Origin: Jiella avicenniae
GTDB lineage: Bacteria > Pseudomonadota > Alphaproteobacteria > Rhizobiales > Rhizobiaceae
Length of the DNA stretch: 64,000 bases
Direction: 5' to 3'
NCBI RefSeq assembly: GCF_021390325.1
Contig: NZ_JAJUWU010000001.1
Coordinates: forward strand, 248,001-312,000
Position numbers and translations under genes: made by a program. Shown here piece after piece: positions 34,439 to 44,679 of the stretch. Numbering within the stretch: position 1 is the stretch's first letter; each line of letters starts with the position of its first letter. The notes beneath the pieces were generated by a model. It made no database searches. It saw only the letters and a program-made list of their open reading frames with translations, and had not been told where the DNA came from.

Positions 34439-35362
34439 TCACATCCTCCCCGTCTGGGTCGGGTCGAGAATGTCGCGCAGCGCGTCGCCGACGAGGTTGA
34501 AGGCGAGGGCAAGCGCGAGGATCGCCGCTCCGGGAAAGAACACCAGCCAGGGGGCGGCCTGGAAGTAGGTCTGGTTCTCGAAGATGATGTTGCCCCAGGA
34601 GGGCGTCGGCGGCTGAACGCCGACGCCGAGATAGGAGAGCGTCGCTTCCAAAAGCACCGTCGTCGAGATGCCGAGGGTGCCCCAGACGATGATTGTCGGC
34701 AGAAGATGCGGCAGGATGTGGCGGAAGAGGATGCGCGGCGTGCCGGCGCCCATCGAGCGCTCGGCCTCGATGAACTCGCGGCGCGACAGCGACGAGGTCT
34801 CGGTATAGACCACGCGCGCCGTCTGCACCCAGTTGACCAGCGCGATCACCATGGCGACGATCCACAGGCTGGGTGAGAGGATCGCGGCGAGGCAGATGGC
34901 CAGAAGCAGCGCCGGAAAGGCCATCATCAGATCGGTAAAACGCATCAGGATGGTGCCGATCCAGCCGCGGTAGAAGCCTGCCGTCACGCCGATCAGCGTG
35001 CCGATGACGAGCGCGATGCCGTTGGCGACGACGCCGATGATCAGCGAGGTGCGGGCGCCGTAGAGGATGCGGGTGAGAAGGTCGCGGCCGAGGAGGTCGG
35101 TGCCGAGCAGGAATTTTTCGCCCGGCGGCATCGGTGCGCCCTCCAGCGTCAGGCCGTCGAACATCTGGTCGTCCGGCGTGAAAGCCGTCAGATAAGGCGC
35201 GAAGATCGCCCCGCCGACGGTGGCGAGGATGATGGCGATGCCGAGAACCGCCAGCGGCCGGCGGATCAGCCTCGCGAAGACGCCGCGCCGTGCCGGCCGG
35301 GCTGCCGGGGAGGCGGCCGGCCCGGTGGCGAGGGCCGCGTCACTTTGCGACGGGCTGCTCAC
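34439..35362 (-). CDS. ABC transporter permease, DppC type
   Basis: A 307-residue permease with six membrane segments; an alanine/proline-rich N-terminal tail precedes the first. FLLGTDLLGRDLLTRILYGAR is the DppC signature and REFIEAERSMGAGTPRILFR is the EAA loop. The GTG start overlaps the 3' end of the amiR-like gene by 23 bases, placing the transporter directly under the AmiC/AmiR-type control genes. Confidence 0.92.
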   Translation of the reverse strand: MSSPSQSDAALATGPAASPAARPARRGVFARLIRRPLAVLGIAIILATVGGAIFAPYLTAFTPDDQMFDGLTLEGAPMPPGEKFLLGTDLLGRDLLTRILYGARTSLIIGVVANGIALVIGTLIGVTAGFYRGWIGTILMRFTDLMMAFPALLLAICLAAILSPSLWIVAMVIALVNWVQTARVVYTETSSLSRREFIEAERSMGAGTPRILFRHILPHLLPTIIVWGTLGISTTVLLEATLSYLGVGVQPPTPSWGNIIFENQTYFQAAPWLVFFPGAAILALALAFNLVGDALRDILDPTQTGRM

Positions 35363-35942
35363 GGCGCTCTCCCCGTTCGAGTTCGACGATGCGGCGGGCT
35401 GCCTCCTCGATCGTCACCTGCCAGGTCATGGCCAGCGCCCGAAGCTGGCCGTAGGCCCGCTCCTCGCCGACGCCGCCGGCCGACAGCGCGACGACGGCCT
35501 TGACGATGGTCTGGCGTTCGGAGACGCGGCTTCGAAGCGTCTCGACCTCCGCCGCAAGGGCCCGCCGCGCCTCGAAGCCGCGGCGGGCGATGAGGAGGGC
35601 GGCATAGATGCCGGAATTGCCGACCGGCTTGACCAGATGGCTGTCGGCGCCGGCGGCGAGCGCCCATTCGATTCGGCCCGGCGCTTCCGAACCGATCATG
35701 GCGATCAGCGGCATCGGCGCCTCGCCGGGCTTCCAGGGGAATTGATCGTCGAAGCCGAGATCGGCGTCGAAGAAGCAGAAATCCGCGCCGAGCGCTTCGG
35801 CCGGCAGCTCCGGCCAGACCTCGACGGCAACGAGCCCGATGGCGGTAAGCTGGCGCATCAGCGGCGCCGTCGCGGGGTGGGGCCGGTGCAGCACGTAGGC
35901 GGTCGCACCGCCGAGATTGGGAATGCGGGCGCGCCGGGTCAC
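35340..35942 (-). CDS. amiR: AmiR-like ANTAR-domain antitermination regulator
   Basis: A 200-residue regulator with a degenerate receiver-like N-domain (DADLGFDDQF, LVKPVGNSGI; no phosphorylatable aspartate pocket is evident), a coiled coil near ALAAEVETLRSRVSERQTIV, and a C-terminal ANTAR RNA-binding domain (AYGQLRALAMTWQVTIEEAARRIV). In the amidase system of Pseudomonas, AmiR binds leader RNA and prevents termination when AmiC releases it. The GTG start overlaps the stop of amiC (GTGA), as in the Pseudomonas pair. The hairpin before amiC is its likely target. Confidence 0.87.
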   Translation of the reverse strand: MTRRARIPNLGGATAYVLHRPHPATAPLMRQLTAIGLVAVEVWPELPAEALGADFCFFDADLGFDDQFPWKPGEAPMPLIAMIGSEAPGRIEWALAAGADSHLVKPVGNSGIYAALLIARRGFEARRALAAEVETLRSRVSERQTIVKAVVALSAGGVGEERAYGQLRALAMTWQVTIEEAARRIVELERGERREQPVAK

Positions 35943-37084
35943 GAGACGGCTCTCAGACTGGGCCGGCCGAAGACGCGGGCGGGGTCGTAGCGCGACAGAT
36001 AGGGGTCCGGCGAAACGACAGCGGGGCTCTCTTCGACCACCTCGAAGCGGCCGCCCCGCGCGCGGGCGATCTTCACCGGCAGGCTGGCATGCTGGTTCGC
36101 CGGGTCGATGGCGATGCGGCCATAGGGCGTCGCGAAGTGCCGGCCCGAAAAGGCCGGCCGCGGGGCCTCCGCCGCCGCGCCCGCCGCATCGAGAAGATCG
36201 GCGAGGACGATCACCGCGCTGTGGGCCGCGACGTAGAAGGAGGAGGCGGCGTTCTCCGGCGCACTGCCCCGGCCCGGTCCTATCGCCCGCTCCTTGCTCG
36301 CGGCGCCCGGTTCCGGCGCGAACCACGGGCCGACCGAAAGATGGCCTTCGGCCGCCGGGCCGATCGCCGGCAGCTCGATTTCGGTCAGGTTGCAGGACAG
36401 GATCGGGCAGCGCTCCGGCGTGAAGTGCCCATCCTCCTCGCCGAGCCGGCCATAGGCCTCGAAGAAGGCGTAGGAGGAGGGGCCGATGAGGTTGTTGAGG
36501 ATGAAGTTCGGCCGGCTTGCCCGGATCTCGGCGATCAGCCGGCTCACATCCGTGTCGCCGAGCGGCAGGTAGCGCTCGCCGAGCACTTCGCCGCCCGCGT
36601 CGCCGATGACGTCCCGGGCGACGCGGTTGGTCTCCCAGCCCCAGATGTAGTTCGAGCCGAGGAGGAAGCCGTTGCGGCCGAAGCGGGGGATGACGTGGGC
36701 GAGCAGCGGCACGAGGTGCTGGTTCGGGCAGGCATGCATGTAGACGACCTGCTCGTTCGCCTCGAACCCCTCGTAGGGGCAGGGATACCAGAGCATGCCG
36801 CCGAATTTCTCCAGCACCGGGATCACCTCCTTGCGGCTCAAGGAGGTGGTGCAGCCGACGACGTGCCGTGCCGAGGAGTCGCGGAAGATCTCCGCGCAGA
36901 GCGGCGCGTAGCGATCGGTCTTGCCCTCCGGATCGCGGGCGACGGGTTGGAAAGCGACGGTGCGGCGATCGTCGGCGTTGACGGCGGCGATCCCGGCCTC
37001 GGCACCGGCCTTCGAGGCGGCCGAAAGCAGCTGGTAGTTGCCGGAGCAGGAAAACAGCAGACCGAGTTCGACGCGTCGCTTCAA
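35939..37084 (-). CDS. amiC: AmiC-like amide sensor, periplasmic-binding-protein fold
   Basis: A 381-residue ligand-binding protein of the AmiC/Peripla_BP_6 family without a signal peptide, so it is cytoplasmic. It starts VELGLLFSCSGNYQLL and has SRKEVIPVLEKFGGMLWYP and LGSNYIWGWETNR, regions shared with AmiC and urea/amide binding proteins. It is inferred to hold AmiR inactive until an amide binds. The start is TTG with GAGAGG six bases upstream; no ATG is available. Being first in the operon, after a strong leader hairpin, matches an autoregulated antitermination circuit. Confidence 0.87.
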   Translation of the reverse strand: MKRRVELGLLFSCSGNYQLLSAASKAGAEAGIAAVNADDRRTVAFQPVARDPEGKTDRYAPLCAEIFRDSSARHVVGCTTSLSRKEVIPVLEKFGGMLWYPCPYEGFEANEQVVYMHACPNQHLVPLLAHVIPRFGRNGFLLGSNYIWGWETNRVARDVIGDAGGEVLGERYLPLGDTDVSRLIAEIRASRPNFILNNLIGPSSYAFFEAYGRLGEEDGHFTPERCPILSCNLTEIELPAIGPAAEGHLSVGPWFAPEPGAASKERAIGPGRGSAPENAASSFYVAAHSAVIVLADLLDAAGAAAEAPRPAFSGRHFATPYGRIAIDPANQHASLPVKIARARGGRFEVVEESPAVVSPDPYLSRYDPARVFGRPSLRAVS

Positions 37085-37382: not shown

Positions 37383-37420
37383 AAAAGAAAACGGGCGCCG
37401 TCCGGGGATGGACGACGCCC
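37383..37420 (-). terminator. Intrinsic terminator after the four-repeat protein gene
   Basis: On the - strand an 11-bp stem (GGGCGTCGTCC / GGACGGCGCCC, one G-U pair, loop ATCCCC) is followed by GTTTTCTTTTG. It begins 37 bases after the stop codon of the gene ending at 37457 and separates it from the amiC operon. Confidence 0.85.
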
Positions 37421-37456
37421 GCTGTCTCGTTGCTGGTCGCGAATGCGGGTCGGGCG

Positions 37457-39556
37457 TCAGCAGCCGGAGCCGGACAGGGCCGCGGCGTTGCCGGAGACCT
37501 GGTCGACCGTCACCGAGCAGCCGTTGCCGAGATCGACCGACTTGCCGGTCGCAACTTCCTTGCGGCCGACGCCGACGATGTAGAGGGTCGCGCCCTTGTC
37601 GGACACGGCGGAGACGAAGACCTTGTGGTCGCCAAAGGCCTTGGTCTGACCGGCGCTGATGCCGTCCGAGCCGAGCGAGGCCGTCTCAGCCGGCTGCTCG
37701 CTTGAACCGGAGGACTGATCGGCCGCGGGCTGCTGATCCTCAGCCGCCTCATTGCCCTCGGCGGCAACCGCGACGCCCTCGGGCTGCTGGCTCTCGTCCG
37801 CCGCCTGCTGCTGCGATGCCTGCTCGGACCCGGCCGCCTGATCGGACGAGCCGGAGGACGGGGCGGGCTGAGCGGACTGGTTCCCGGCGTCTTGTCCGGC
37901 GGCCTCGCCGGACTGCTGCGGCTGGGCCGCCTCGCCCGACTGCTGGCCGGACTGGCCGCCTTCGCAGCCATTTGCCGAGAGCGTTGCCTTGCCCTCGTTC
38001 ACGGCGTCGAGGGTGACCGAGCAGCCATTGCCGATGTCGGCGCTCTGCCCGACATCGAGGCTCTTGCGGCCCCCGCCGCCGACGACGAAGAGCGTCGCCG
38101 CATTGTCCTGCACTGCCGAGACGAAGATCCGGTTCTCGCCGAACACCGCCGTCTGGCCGGCCCCGAAGCTGTCGCCGGAGGCCGACTGCTGGCTGCCCTG
38201 CGAAGACGAGCCGCCGGCTGCGGCGGCCTGCTGGCCGCCCTGCGAATCCGAGGATGCGCCGGACGCCGCCGCCTGCTGCTCGCTGCCCTCGGCCTGCTGG
38301 CCCGAGTTCTGTTGCGCTGCCTGCTGGCCGCTCTCGCTCTGCTGGGCGCTCTGCTCGCCGGACTGAGCGTTCTGGCCGGCCTGCTGCGCCCCGCCCTGGC
38401 TTGCATCGCCGCCTTCGCAGCCGCTGGCCGAGAGGGTCGCGGCGTTGTTCTCGGTGCTTTCCAGCGTGACGCTGCAGCCGTTGCCGGCGTCGAAGCTCGA
38501 GCCCGTCGCCACCTGCTGGCGCTTGCCGCCCACGACCATCAGCATAGCGCCGTCGTCGCTGATGCCCGAGACGAAGACCTTGGTGTCGCCGAAGGTCGCG
38601 ACGCCGCCGACCGGAACCGGACCGCCGGAGCCGCCACCCTCGCCATTGCCGGAGCCTTGCCCGGACGACGCCGCCGCGGCCTGCTGACCGCCGCTCTGGC
38701 CCTGCTGGCCGCTCTGGCTCTGCTGGCCGCCCTGGCTCTGCTGGCCGCCGGCTTCGGAAGTGGCGGCAGCGGCGGCGGCACCCTGGCCCGAACCCTGGCC
38801 GCCCTGCTGGCCGTCTTGCGATGCCGCCTGTTGCTGGCCGCCCTCGGAGCTGCCGGAAGCCGCCTGGCCGGAGCCGCCTTCGCAACCTTCGGCCGACAGG
38901 AACGCCGCGCCGGCCGCGACGCCGGACAGGGTGACCGAGCAGCCTTCGCCGACATCCACCGATGCGCCGGCCTGCACGTCCTGCGGCTCGCCGTCGCCGG
39001 CGGCGAGTTTCGCCGAACCCTCGGAGACGTCCGAAAGCGTCAGGCGGCTGGAGCCGAAGATCGCCGACTGGCCGGGGACGAGGATCGCCCCGGTCGCGCC
39101 GACCGACTGCACGAGCCGGGCCATGTCGCCGCCCTGGCCGCCGGATGTGCCGCCGCCCTGCGACAGGCCCGCCACGCTCTCCTGCAGCGTGGCGATTTCG
39201 GATTTGAGATCGGCGAGACCCTGGCTGGTCTCATCCGCCGCCTGACCGGCCTTCGGCTGGACGGCCGTGGCAATCTCGTCGGTCTTGCTCTGAAGGGTCT
39301 GGCCGAGCTGGTCCATGTCGGTCTTCAGGCCGGCCACCGCGTCGGTGACGGCCTTGTTGGTCTCGTCCAGCTTGGCGCTGAGCGTATCGGAAACCGTCTG
39401 GACCCCGGTTCTCGTCTGGTCGATCGGCTCCTTCAGGGAGGCGATCTGTTCGTCGACGTTCTCGCTGACGTCGTCGACGTCGGGCCCGAGCAGCCAGCCG
39501 ATGAACAGACCGACGATCAAGGCGACGACGATCGGAATGAATTTCGAACCGCCCAT
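37457..39556 (-). CDS. Membrane-anchored protein with four two-cysteine repeat domains and Q/G/S-rich linkers (novel)
   Basis: I do not recognise this 699-residue protein. An N-terminal helix (residues 7-23) would anchor it in the inner membrane, with the rest in the periplasm. Residues 28-130 look like a coiled coil. Four copies of a domain of about 65 residues follow, near 161-225, 317-380, 467-531 and 635-699. Each has xFGxxxxxVSxV, a Gly/Lys turn, then GxGCSVTL and a final SGC or NGC. The two cysteines are always 19 residues apart (206/225, 361/380, 512/531, 680/699), suggesting a disulfide per domain, and the last cysteine is the final residue. Linkers of 85-105 residues are rich in Gln, Gly, Ser and Ala. 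A strong GGAGGA precedes the ATG; an intrinsic terminator follows. Its function is unknown. Confidence 0.8.
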
Positions 39557-39876
39557 GCAATCTTCCTCCCGGGGGATTTCGTAGAGGCCCAGAGAGGAAG
39601 GGGGACCGGCCCGGAAGTCAACCATGGAAGGCGTCAAGGCAAGTTTTTTTGCGCGGCCTCTTGCCCGATCGCGGCGACGCAAAATCTTCGTGCCATCGGA
39701 GTTTGGAGGGGTTCGGGTCGCTGGTCCCGGCCTCTCTGACGGACGGCCTGGGCCCGTGCTGCCGGAAGAGCCGCGCGGCTCTGCCCGATGCGCGGGCTTG
39801 CGCCGGCGCCTGGATGGCGCGATGGAGCGTCCCGTCGGTCGTGGCCTTGCCGGCGAGACGGGGAAGGATGGGAAAC
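39557..39876. other. Gap before pdxJ with a 16-bp palindrome
   Basis: No gene is supported here. The region is the divergent promoter area for the four-repeat protein gene and pdxJ. AGAGCCGC-GCGGCTCT (39767-39782) is a perfect palindrome of unknown role. Confidence 0.3.
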
Positions 39877-40623
39877 ATGACGGTCGAACTTTCGGTGAAT
39901 CTCAATGCCGTCGCCATGCTGCGCAACCGCCGGGATCTGCCATGGCCGAGCGTCATCGGCCTCGGCCGCATCGCGCTCGCCGCCGGAGCCCACGGCCTGA
40001 CGGTCCATCCGCGGCCCGACGAGCGGCACATCCGCTTTTCGGATCTGCCGGCGATCCGCGCGCTCATCGACGAGGAGTTTCCCGAAGCCGAATTCAACAT
40101 CGAGGGCTATCCGTCGCAGGAATTTCTCGACCTCGTCTCGGCGGCGCGACCGGAACAGGTGACGCTCGTCCCCGACGATCCGTCGCAGCCGACCTCCGAT
40201 CACGGCTGGGACTTTGGCGTGGAGGGCGCGTTTCTCGAACCGATCGTCGCCCGGCTGCGGGGCGAGGGCGCCCGGGTCTCGCTGTTCGCCGATGCCCACC
40301 CGGCGCAGATTCCCGCTGCGGCGGCGACGGGCTGCGACCGGATCGAACTCTACACCGGCCCTTATGGCGGGACCTATGCCGACGCGGCCGCCGCCGAGGT
40401 GGAGATCGAGCGGCTCGGACGGACCGCCGACGCGGCGCGCGGCCTCGGCCTCGCGGTCAATGCCGGCCATGATCTGACCATCGCCAACCTGCCGCCGCTG
40501 ATCGCCCGGATCCCGGACCTCGCCGAGGTGTCGATCGGCCACGGCCTCACTGCCGACGCGCTGGAATTCGGCATGGCCGAGACGGTGCGGCGCTTCCGGC
40601 GGGCCTGCGGCCAGGCTGTGTGA
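39877..40623 (+). CDS. pdxJ: Pyridoxine 5'-phosphate synthase
   Basis: A 248-residue PdxJ TIM-barrel enzyme that condenses 3-amino-1-hydroxyacetone phosphate with 1-deoxyxylulose 5-phosphate in vitamin B6 synthesis. The conserved start [34 protein letters not shown] and [18 protein letters not shown] are all present, as is the phosphate loop near VNAGHDL and SIGHGL. AAGGA lies eight bases before ATG 39877; an ATG three codons earlier is too close to a ribosome site. acpS or recO, frequent neighbours of pdxJ elsewhere, are not here; instead a flavin monooxygenase gene follows after 31 bases. Confidence 0.95.
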
Positions 40624-42300: not shown

Positions 42301-44679
42301 ATGCGCATCACGGTGATCGGCGGCGGCCCTGGCGGGCTCTATTTCGCACTGCTGACCAAGAAACGCCGTCCTGACTGGCAGATCGCCGTCTACGAGCAGA
42401 ACCGGGCGGACGACACCTTCGGCTTCGGCGTCGTCTTCTCCGACGAGACGCTGCACGAGTTCCTGTCGCGCGATCCCAAATCCTTCGACCGCATCCGCGA
42501 CGACTTCGCCTATTGGGACGACGTCGCGGTCCACAAGCACGGTGCCGAAATGCGCTGCGCCGGAAACGGCTTTGCCGGCATCTCGCGGATGAAGCTGCTC
42601 GCCATCCTGCAAGGGCGCTGCCGGGAGGAGGGCGTCGAGATGCATTTCGGCGTCTCGGTCCCGCCGGAGGAGATCGCCACCCGCTTTGCCGGCAGCGACG
42701 TCGTCGTCGCGGCGGACGGGGTGAATTCGCGCATCCGCGAGCATTTCCGCGAGAGCTTCCGGCCACAGGTGGCGATCCAGTCGAACCGCTTCTGCTGGAT
42801 GGGCTCGACCCGGCCGATGGACGAATTCAACTACTTCTTCCGCGAGACCGAACACGGCATCATCTGCGCCCACACCTATCAGTACGAGGCTGGCCGCTCG
42901 ACCTGGATCTTCGAGATGGACGAGGCCTGCTGGCGCGGCCACGGTTTCGACGGGCTCGACGAGGAGGGCTCGAAGGCAGTTCTCGAGGGCCTCTACGCAG
43001 AAGAGCTCGAAGGCCATCCGCTGCTTCTCAACCGCTCGAACTGGCGGCAGTTTCCGCGGATCTTCTGCGACAGGTGGTGGCACGAGAACATCGTCCTCCT
43101 CGGCGACGCCAAGGCCTCGGCCCATTACTCCATCGGCTCGGGCACCAAGCTCGCCATGGAATGCGCCATCTGGCTGTCGGACGCGGTCGTCGACCACGCC
43201 GAAACCAGCGCCGTGGAGGCCTTCGAGGCCTATGAAGCCGAGCGCCGCACGCCCTGCCAGATCATCCAGCACAATGCCGACGTGTCGCTCGCCTGGTTCG
43301 AGCACATGAACCGATCCTGGGACATGAGCCCGGAGCAGTTCGCCATGGTGGTGATGTGCCGGGCAAAATCGATCACCTACGACAATCTCATCGTCCGCGA
43401 TCCGGCCTTCGTCGCAAAGGTCGACACCGCCTTCTACGAACAGCTTTACCGCGAGACCGGCGAGGACTACCGCAAGAGCCGGCCGACGCCGATGTTCACC
43501 CGGTTCAGGCTGCGCGACATGGTCGTCGAGAACCGCGTCGTGATGTCGCCGATGGCGCAATATTCCGCCGACGAGGACGGCAACCTCACCGACTGGCACT
43601 TCGTCCACTATACCTCCCACGCGCTCGGCGGCGCCGGCATGGTGTTCGTCGAGATGACCTGCCCCTCGGCCGATGCGCGGATCACGCCGGGCTGTCCGGG
43701 GCTGTGGACTGACGCGCAGGAGGCGGGATTCAAGCGCATCGTCGACTTCGTCCACACCCATTCGAAGACCAAGATGGTGATGCAGCTCGGCCATGCCGGC
43801 CGCAAGGGCTCGACCCAGCTCGGCTGGCAGAAGATGGACTGGCCGCTCGAAGAAAAGGCGAAGAACTGGCCGCTCTTCTCGGCCTCCGCGCTTCCCTACA
43901 GGGACGGCGTCAGCCAGGCGCCGAAGGCGATGGACCGGGCGGACATGGACCGGATCAAGGCCGATTTCGTGCAAGCCGCGGAGCGGGCCGAGCGCGCCGG
44001 CTTCGACATGCTCGAACTCCACTGCGCCCATGGATATCTGCTGGCGTCCTTCCTCTCGCCGCTGACCAACCGGCGCGAGGACGACTACGGGGGCTCGATC
44101 GGGAACCGGTTGCGCTACCCCCTCGAGGTGTTTTCGGCGATGCGCGCTGTGTGGCCGGCCCACAAACCCATGTCGGTCCGCATTTCGGCCACCGACTGGG
44201 CCGAGGGCGGCATCGACGAAGAGGCCACCTTCGCGATCTCCGAGGCCTTCGCCGAGGCGGGCTGCGACCTGATCGACGTTTCCGCCGGCCAGACGATCGC
44301 CGAGCAGAAGCCGCTCTATGGCCGGATGTTCCAGGTGAAGTTCGCCGAGGCGATCCGCAACGTCCCGAAGATGGCGGTCATGGCCGTCGGCGCGATCACC
44401 GAGGCGGCACAGGTGAACACCATCCTCCACACCCGCCGCGCCGATCTCGTGGCGCTCGGCCGCCCGCATATGTGGAATCCCTATTTCACCAGGGAGGCCG
44501 CCGCCTGGTACGACGCCCGCAACCAGCATTGGCCGAAGCAATATCTCTCGGGGCGAGACCAGGCCCATCGCGAACTGTCGAAAAAGCGCGAGCAGGAGAT
44601 CGAGACGCGGCGCAAGGCACGGCCCCGGCCGCACGAGCCGACACTCGGTCTGCCGCAGAAGCGCGAGGCGGCGGAGTAG
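42301..44679 (+). CDS. Bifunctional aryl-CoA monooxygenase/reductase (2-aminobenzoyl-CoA or salicylyl-CoA type)
   Basis: A 792-residue fusion. Residues 1-375 are a flavin monooxygenase (ITVIGGGPGGLYFALLTKK, VVVAADGVNSRIREHF, IVLLGDAKASAHYSIGSGT). Residues 395-770 are an old-yellow-enzyme reductase (MSPMAQYSADEDGNLTDWH, MQLGHAGRKGS, ELHCAHGYLLASFLSPLTN). This architecture is that of 2-aminobenzoyl-CoA monooxygenase/reductase of aerobic anthranilate degradation, also annotated as salicylyl-CoA 5-hydroxylase. It hydroxylates and partly reduces the ring of the CoA thioester. AGGAG lies six bases before the ATG. The ligase, dehydrogenase, hydratase and SDR on the opposite strand fit the beta-oxidation-like steps that follow. 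Its TAG stop is the first triplet of an intergenic repeat. Confidence 0.9.
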   Translation: MRITVIGGGPGGLYFALLTKKRRPDWQIAVYEQNRADDTFGFGVVFSDETLHEFLSRDPKSFDRIRDDFAYWDDVAVHKHGAEMRCAGNGFAGISRMKLLAILQGRCREEGVEMHFGVSVPPEEIATRFAGSDVVVAADGVNSRIREHFRESFRPQVAIQSNRFCWMGSTRPMDEFNYFFRETEHGIICAHTYQYEAGRSTWIFEMDEACWRGHGFDGLDEEGSKAVLEGLYAEELEGHPLLLNRSNWRQFPRIFCDRWWHENIVLLGDAKASAHYSIGSGTKLAMECAIWLSDAVVDHAETSAVEAFEAYEAERRTPCQIIQHNADVSLAWFEHMNRSWDMSPEQFAMVVMCRAKSITYDNLIVRDPAFVAKVDTAFYEQLYRETGEDYRKSRPTPMFTRFRLRDMVVENRVVMSPMAQYSADEDGNLTDWHFVHYTSHALGGAGMVFVEMTCPSADARITPGCPGLWTDAQEAGFKRIVDFVHTHSKTKMVMQLGHAGRKGSTQLGWQKMDWPLEEKAKNWPLFSASALPYRDGVSQAPKAMDRADMDRIKADFVQAAERAERAGFDMLELHCAHGYLLASFLSPLTNRREDDYGGSIGNRLRYPLEVFSAMRAVWPAHKPMSVRISATDWAEGGIDEEATFAISEAFAEAGCDLIDVSAGQTIAEQKPLYGRMFQVKFAEAIRNVPKMAVMAVGAITEAAQVNTILHTRRADLVALGRPHMWNPYFTREAAAWYDARNQHWPKQYLSGRDQAHRELSKKREQEIETRRKARPRPHEPTLGLPQKREAAE

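Follow-up and report, generated by a model that had tools for sequence, protein, structure and literature searches.

The minus-strand gene at 37457..39556 of the window (the complete 64,000-nucleotide stretch of DNA that was analysed, to which all coordinates refer) encodes a predicted membrane-anchored protein with four homologous two-cysteine domains, and in our genome samples the 30 homologues, source genome included, all belong to one clade. This makes it an envelope protein left unnamed by the profile libraries searched and found in one clade. We tentatively read it as an oligomeric, inner-membrane-anchored periplasmic tether or scaffold with disulfide-pinned, multivalent binding modules, and give this reading somewhat less than an even chance: we infer the periplasmic side, the disulfide, the oligomer and the binding role.

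Gene and predicted product

The gene encodes 699 residues plus a stop, and its strand, length and eight cysteine positions, re-read from the translation, are those given in the initial annotation. A protein search found one copy in the source genome. A ribosome-binding-like sequence read directly from the DNA, GGAGGAAG (39562..39569, minus strand), is located 5 bases before the ATG, and a terminator-like hairpin of 14 pairs with a T-rich tail (37390..37423, minus strand) is located just past the stop. The gene had been credited with its own strong ribosome site and terminator: a candidate for the first is present, and for the second only the position of the hairpin argues, as the scan found 2 overlapping sites compared to 1.4 expected in shuffles. 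The scan gave no sigma-70-like promoter.

The whole protein has no match above the curated cut-offs in either Pfam or NCBIfam, and comparison with PDB sequences returned no match with an E-value under 0.3; these searches named no family for the domains, as had been anticipated from the sequence. The sub-threshold matches in residues 25-132 were to helical or coiled-coil-type families and were rejected as compositional, and the sole sub-threshold match outside these residues, to Kelch_4 (E 0.26), falls below its curated cut-off. When 63 domains were compared to Pfam, 19 families were matched by 1-3 members each (E 0.015 to 0.56), which we treat as chance. No earlier description of the protein was found in the open-licence literature searched. 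The family and its module array are new to the profile libraries searched; an anchored periplasmic protein with a linker and a beta module is an already known kind.

Membrane helix, stalk and linkers

Residues 6-24 (39485..39541, minus strand) are hydrophobic and form the single predicted membrane helix, consistent with the anchored build proposed earlier. Approximately 5 residues precede this helix, among them one lysine, and acidic residues stand just after it, from which an N-in orientation is predicted. One face of the helix, A12-x3-G16-x3-G20, is invariant in the alignment columns of all 30 proteins. The helix is followed by a heptad-like helical stalk (residues 29-132; 39161..39472, minus strand). 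Over residues 29-161, the best hydrophobic period is 3.58, with a power reached by none of 300 shuffles, a periodicity in keeping with the coiled coil suggested to follow the membrane helix; it is also found in four relatives (five of five proteins tested). Together, the invariant helix face and the stalk periodicity suggest an oligomer. Because the AlphaFold model of the stalk and membrane part is helical with low confidence, this suggestion is drawn from the sequence pattern.

Three linkers join the domains, with lengths of 91, 87 and 104 residues according to the boundaries set here: linker 1 (residues 226-316; 38609..38881), linker 2 (residues 381-467; 38156..38416) and linker 3 (residues 532-635; 37652..37963), all on the minus strand. 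Glutamine, glycine, serine and alanine make up 82% of these residues (lengths of 85-105 residues and dominance of the same four amino acids had been noted from the sequence). In comparisons of the window protein with nine relatives, gaps occur in none of 36 domain comparisons and in all 27 linker comparisons (4-52 positions), with identities of 48-94% for domains and 34-77% for linkers. Linkers rich in Gln/Gly/Ser/Ala characterise the Fulvimarina proteins and the majority of those from the window's genus, Ala/Pro-rich linkers are found in others (for example, those of G443 and G704) and intermediates exist. The linkers behave as expected of spacers: they drift in sequence and length yet stay hydrophilic, suggesting flexible tethers. 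The initial annotation had pictured a periplasmic fibre; the variation in linker length and composition favours a tether that is flexible over a fibre that is rigid.

Two-cysteine domains

The four domains are homologous and approximately 65 residues in length: domain 1 (residues 162-225; 38882..39073), domain 2 (residues 317-380; 38417..38608), domain 3 (residues 468-531; 37964..38155) and domain 4 (residues 636-699; 37460..37651), all on the minus strand. Identity to domain 3 is 43% for domain 1, 49% for domain 2 and 55% for domain 4. Their cysteine pairs (206/225, 361/380, 512/531 and 680/699, with Cys699 being the C-terminus) are those listed in the initial annotation. The motif GxGCSVTL that it assigned to all four differs at its last position in domain 4, which reads GNGCSVTV.

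Across the 30 proteins there are 103 domains, each with exactly two cysteines, and there are no cysteines outside the domains, a pattern far beyond chance. None of the homologues lacks the pairs. The two features by which we propose to define the family, paired cysteines in every module and an N-terminal helix with A-x3-G-x3-G, are thus found in 103/103 domains and 30/30 proteins, respectively. The pair has a spacing of 19 in all but four of the domains (99), three of which have 17 and one 18, and the sole further invariant column in the domain is a glycine. Two domains, G444 domain 2 and G439 domain 1, are strongly diverged (end branches of 1.35 and 0.64) and keep the cysteine pair. The number of domains per protein ranges from one to five (one in two proteins, two in one, three in eleven, four in fourteen and five in two). 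The final cysteine is the final residue in 26 of the 30 proteins; the exceptions are the two one-domain proteins, with 40 and 81 residues beyond it, and two proteins with a two-residue tail.

Distribution of the family

A protein search of 61 genomes (source included) gave matches in 13, and a domain profile gave 29 matches in 394 genomes of the family, one of which (G697, E 9e-4) was discarded as spurious, being a long frame that lacks the cysteine pattern. The 28 accepted profile matches and two genomes seen only by protein search make up the total of 30 proteins, which, with the source genome included, cover 10 genera by genome-set codes. Named carriers (15 loci from a public species collection) are Jiella, Aurantimonas, Fulvimarina and Antarcticirhabdus. 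Outside the source genome, the domain profile found no domain in 318 genomes drawn from the class or in 200 drawn from the phylum. The order sample (397 genomes) was scanned with a full-length profile, which gave 7 matches: 2 true matches and 5 in the stalk region (E 2e-4 to 6e-4). No copy was found in viral contigs or plasmids. An N-terminal profile run on 247 genomes gave 18 true matches and 4 weak ones that we read as other proteins, so no domain-less relative was seen in that sample.

Predicted fold and proposed role of the cysteines

An AlphaFold model of domain 3, built with a 63-domain alignment, has a mean pLDDT of 94.1 and a pTM of 0.81 and is all beta, with strands at positions 6-9, 12-20, 23-28, 34-38, 42-46, 49-57 and 60-66 of the modelled domain. 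Judging from these strand limits, the last two strands would form a hairpin whose register sets Cys49 opposite Cys68. The initial annotation proposed one disulfide per module; there is indeed one cysteine pair in each of the 103 modules, and a bond between the two is our prediction. A structural disulfide fits better than a switch, as the pair is never lost and would sit at both ends of the predicted hairpin.

The cysteine pair in every module, together with the membrane anchor, could also be taken to indicate a redox or envelope-stress sensor in which the pairs switch with the redox state of the periplasm, the function suggested initially. The analysis does not support that suggestion, and we consider such a sensor very unlikely, and less likely than a tether: with approximately 5 residues ahead of the membrane helix, there is no cytoplasmic output domain, the sole neighbour conserved nearly throughout (29/30) is pdxJ-like rather than a regulator, and several equivalent, never-varying pairs would in our judgement be unusual for a switch.

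A Foldseek search of the domain model gave no match in the PDB at E <= 0.001. With a slower structural aligner, for which a Z-score under 8 may mean a mere common arrangement, the domain 3 model had Z-scores of 7.9 with CcsBA, 7.0 with an S-layer domain from Methanosarcina, up to 6.2 with domains of viral glycoproteins, 5.2 with LspC (55 residues, rmsd 2.6) and 3.4-3.8 with PilP. A second model containing domain 1, low in confidence outside that domain, gave CcsBA (7.7), the S-layer domain (6.8), LspC (5.3, rmsd 2.1) and PilP (3.4-3.5). No further family was listed in the structure libraries, an absence that is not itself evidence. A separate observation concerns BFVD A0A6G5YD98, an unnamed viral protein of 96 residues, which matches the domain model with a TM-score of 0.82 (query), 17% identity and E 0.006.

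Possible relationship to HR domains

GspC, PilP and GspB are described in passages of PMC9239104 as sharing the HR beta-sandwich, with identities of 10-17% and 1.7-2.8 A over 58 atoms, and the GspC HR domain is given six strands and PilP seven in passages of PMC3169554. According to the former source, GspB consists of a short cytoplasmic region, a membrane helix, a linker of variable length and an HR domain, and tethers a secretin to the inner membrane and peptidoglycan. The most specific version of a tether would be a secretin adaptor: modules that are divergent HR domains docking on the N0 domain of the genome's own secretin as GspC, PilP and GspB do.

The evidence for this version comes first from a profile comparison. 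A profile of the 103 domains compared to 34 GspC sequences (hhalign) gave a score of 22.4 over 41 columns, with a P-value of 0.0012 and a probability of just 19%. Shuffling the columns of the GspC profile 100 times never gave so high a score (best 14.2), the reversed profile scored 9.5 and the best of 25 unrelated clusters, which are neighbouring reading frames and probably include some that are not genes, scored 15.5 over 9 columns. The positive control, PilP compared to GspC, had a probability of 86% and a score of 40.5. However, a first GspC profile of five sequences matched the domain no better than the unrelated clusters did (probability 2.7%, score 15.2), and the PilP profile showed no similarity to the domain (probability 0.1-0.2%). 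Because the comparison with 34 GspC sequences beats its shuffles but the PilP and five-sequence GspC profiles fail, we regard kinship with HR domains as possible but unproven.

The LspC matches of two separate models (Z 5.2 and 5.3, 55 residues) point the same way as the larger GspC profile. Neither T2SSC (PF11356) nor PilP (PF04351) is among the Pfam matches of the whole protein or of the 63 domains (for T2SSC, at E up to 10 and up to 1, respectively), and the source genome itself has no T2SSC or PilP match. There is one secretin in the source genome and at least one in all 14 carriers tested, which says little since secretins are common, and the gene does not adjoin the secretin in the source genome (C10 compared to C12). 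On balance we regard a secretin adaptor as rather unlikely. If the HR link is true, the use of secretin-type adaptor modules would extend beyond type II secretion and type IVa pili.

Genomic neighbourhood and evolution

A divergent frame that we take to be pdxJ-like (39877..40623, plus strand), outside the system, adjoins the gene in all but one of the 30 loci and is the sole neighbour kept nearly throughout. In 17 of the 30 loci, including those of both one-domain forms, a frame that is presumably a recD-like helicase is convergent with the gene, 59-799 bases past its stop; in the other 13 it is absent from the analysed stretch (two of these stretches end less than 450 bases past the gene). 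This helicase is also upstream of pdxJ, and on its strand, in 9 of 17 outgroup loci, with a spacing of 79-148 bases in 4 and roughly 530-1,100 in 5; some of the latter have another frame on the opposite strand in that space. Since this order is found in the outgroup, the simplest view is that the gene occupies an old gap between recD and pdxJ, one that is short or otherwise filled in other lineages. In three outgroup loci (L134, L136 and L139), the recD-pdxJ gap holds opposite-strand frames that differ by lineage, as if it were a recurrent site of landing or birth. Elsewhere in the window are a plus-strand frame (42301-44679, 792 residues), presumably a flavin monooxygenase fused to an old-yellow-enzyme-type oxidoreductase, and two minus-strand frames (35340-37084) that we take to be an amide-sensing binding protein and an antiterminator regulator of AmiC/AmiR type, beside what are presumably peptide-transport genes down to 31834.

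A single-gene pdxJ tree of 43 rows (27 of 30 carriers and 16 of 17 outgroup loci, the rest having been lost in motif trimming) does not unite the carriers in one clade: the one-domain G552 and three-domain G752 are placed among non-carriers, on weak or open branches. This split disfavours a simple single gain. We weigh the shared position above the weak pdxJ branches, and the conflict over a single gain stands.

In a tree of the domains (68 columns, 103 rows, SH-aLRT support, open at 49 of its 100 inner branches), one starred group takes in 29 of 30 first domains with 4 middle domains, and 25 of 28 last domains fall into one weakly supported group with 9 middle domains. In G035 and G584, middle domains have another copy from their own protein as sister, and the one-domain proteins carry the 'first' domain type. 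Since there are living relatives with one, two, three, four and five modules, the family makes it possible to follow how a modular periplasmic protein has grown. These results also bear on whether the protein is a passive spacer or polymer brush, with linkers that fill or space the periplasm and modules that merely resist proteolysis. Such a protein would account for linkers that change composition while staying long and 1-6% hydrophobic; that first domains are of one type across genera and that one-domain forms exist suggest instead a specific role for the first domain, and we consider a brush distinctly improbable and less likely than a tether.

The boldest scenario, which we hold to be speculative with a modest chance at best, is that the family was gained beside pdxJ in an ancestor of Aurantimonadaceae-type bacteria and expanded from a single module to up to five, with a distant HR-type fold made into a disulfide-locked multivalent array: a new trans-periplasmic tether that, with neither GspC nor PilP, may serve the cell wall or a secretin.

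Proposed function

In the tether that we propose, the N-in membrane helix and the coiled-coil stalk would assemble an oligomer, from whose stalk small beta-sandwich modules would extend through the periplasm on long unstructured linkers (the simplest relatives having one module, this protein four and others up to five). A single disulfide spanning the last hairpin would lock each module, and the modules would bind a common envelope partner, such as the N domain of a secretin, or peptidoglycan or some other component of the wall, with their repetition providing avidity and reach. Rigid modules pinned by cysteines suggest binding heads suited to an oxidising periplasm. Against this reading, the resemblance to the HR fold is weak, with two unrelated proteins (CcsBA and the S-layer domain) scoring higher, and the model of the stalk and membrane part is of low confidence. 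Among the 30 loci, no partner gene other than pdxJ is conserved nearby.

Repeated beta modules separated by low-complexity linkers, in a copy number of 1 to 5, would also be expected of a surface fibre or adhesin, in which the array would lie on the outside of the cell and its repeats would serve attachment; module copy number varies in many adhesins. The N-terminal anchor looks uncleavable, no sorting signal was recognised by eye and no partner export gene is conserved nearby in the gene's loci, which makes this alternative improbable and less likely than the tether.

Comparison with known systems

Periplasm-spanning proteins of the TonB, TolA and FtsN type also have an N-terminal anchor, a long low-complexity stretch and a small folded end module; none is known to be an array of two-cysteine beta modules. 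The two structures with the highest Z-scores, the periplasmic beta domain of CcsBA and the DUF1608 domain of Methanosarcina MA0829, ranked highest with both models, but they belong to contexts unrelated to the protein described here and their scores are under 8.

PilP has a beta-sandwich of comparable size (Z 3.4-3.8). It differs in being a lipoprotein according to passages of PMC3169554, and its profile has no similarity to the domain and no match in the source genome. GspC is closer in build, with a membrane helix, a linker and a six-stranded beta-sandwich, and in its weak profile similarity and the LspC structure matches. As described in passages of PMC3169554, a paper that does not contain the word 'disulfide', GspC has one HR domain followed by a C-terminal PDZ domain or coiled coil; the protein described here has no PF11356 match and ends with its fourth two-cysteine domain at Cys699, with neither a PDZ domain nor a coiled coil after it.

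GspB (OutB), here compared by description, is similar in that a short cytoplasmic part and one membrane helix are followed by a periplasmic linker, variable in length, and a small all-beta domain. In the passages of PMC9239104, it has a single HR domain, a peptidoglycan-binding C-terminal extension and a type II secretin as its partner, whereas our protein has four domains (1-5 in the family), an obligatory cysteine pair in each and a stalk, and lacks the extension. The build of GspB set out there is a precedent for the anchored tether build proposed here.
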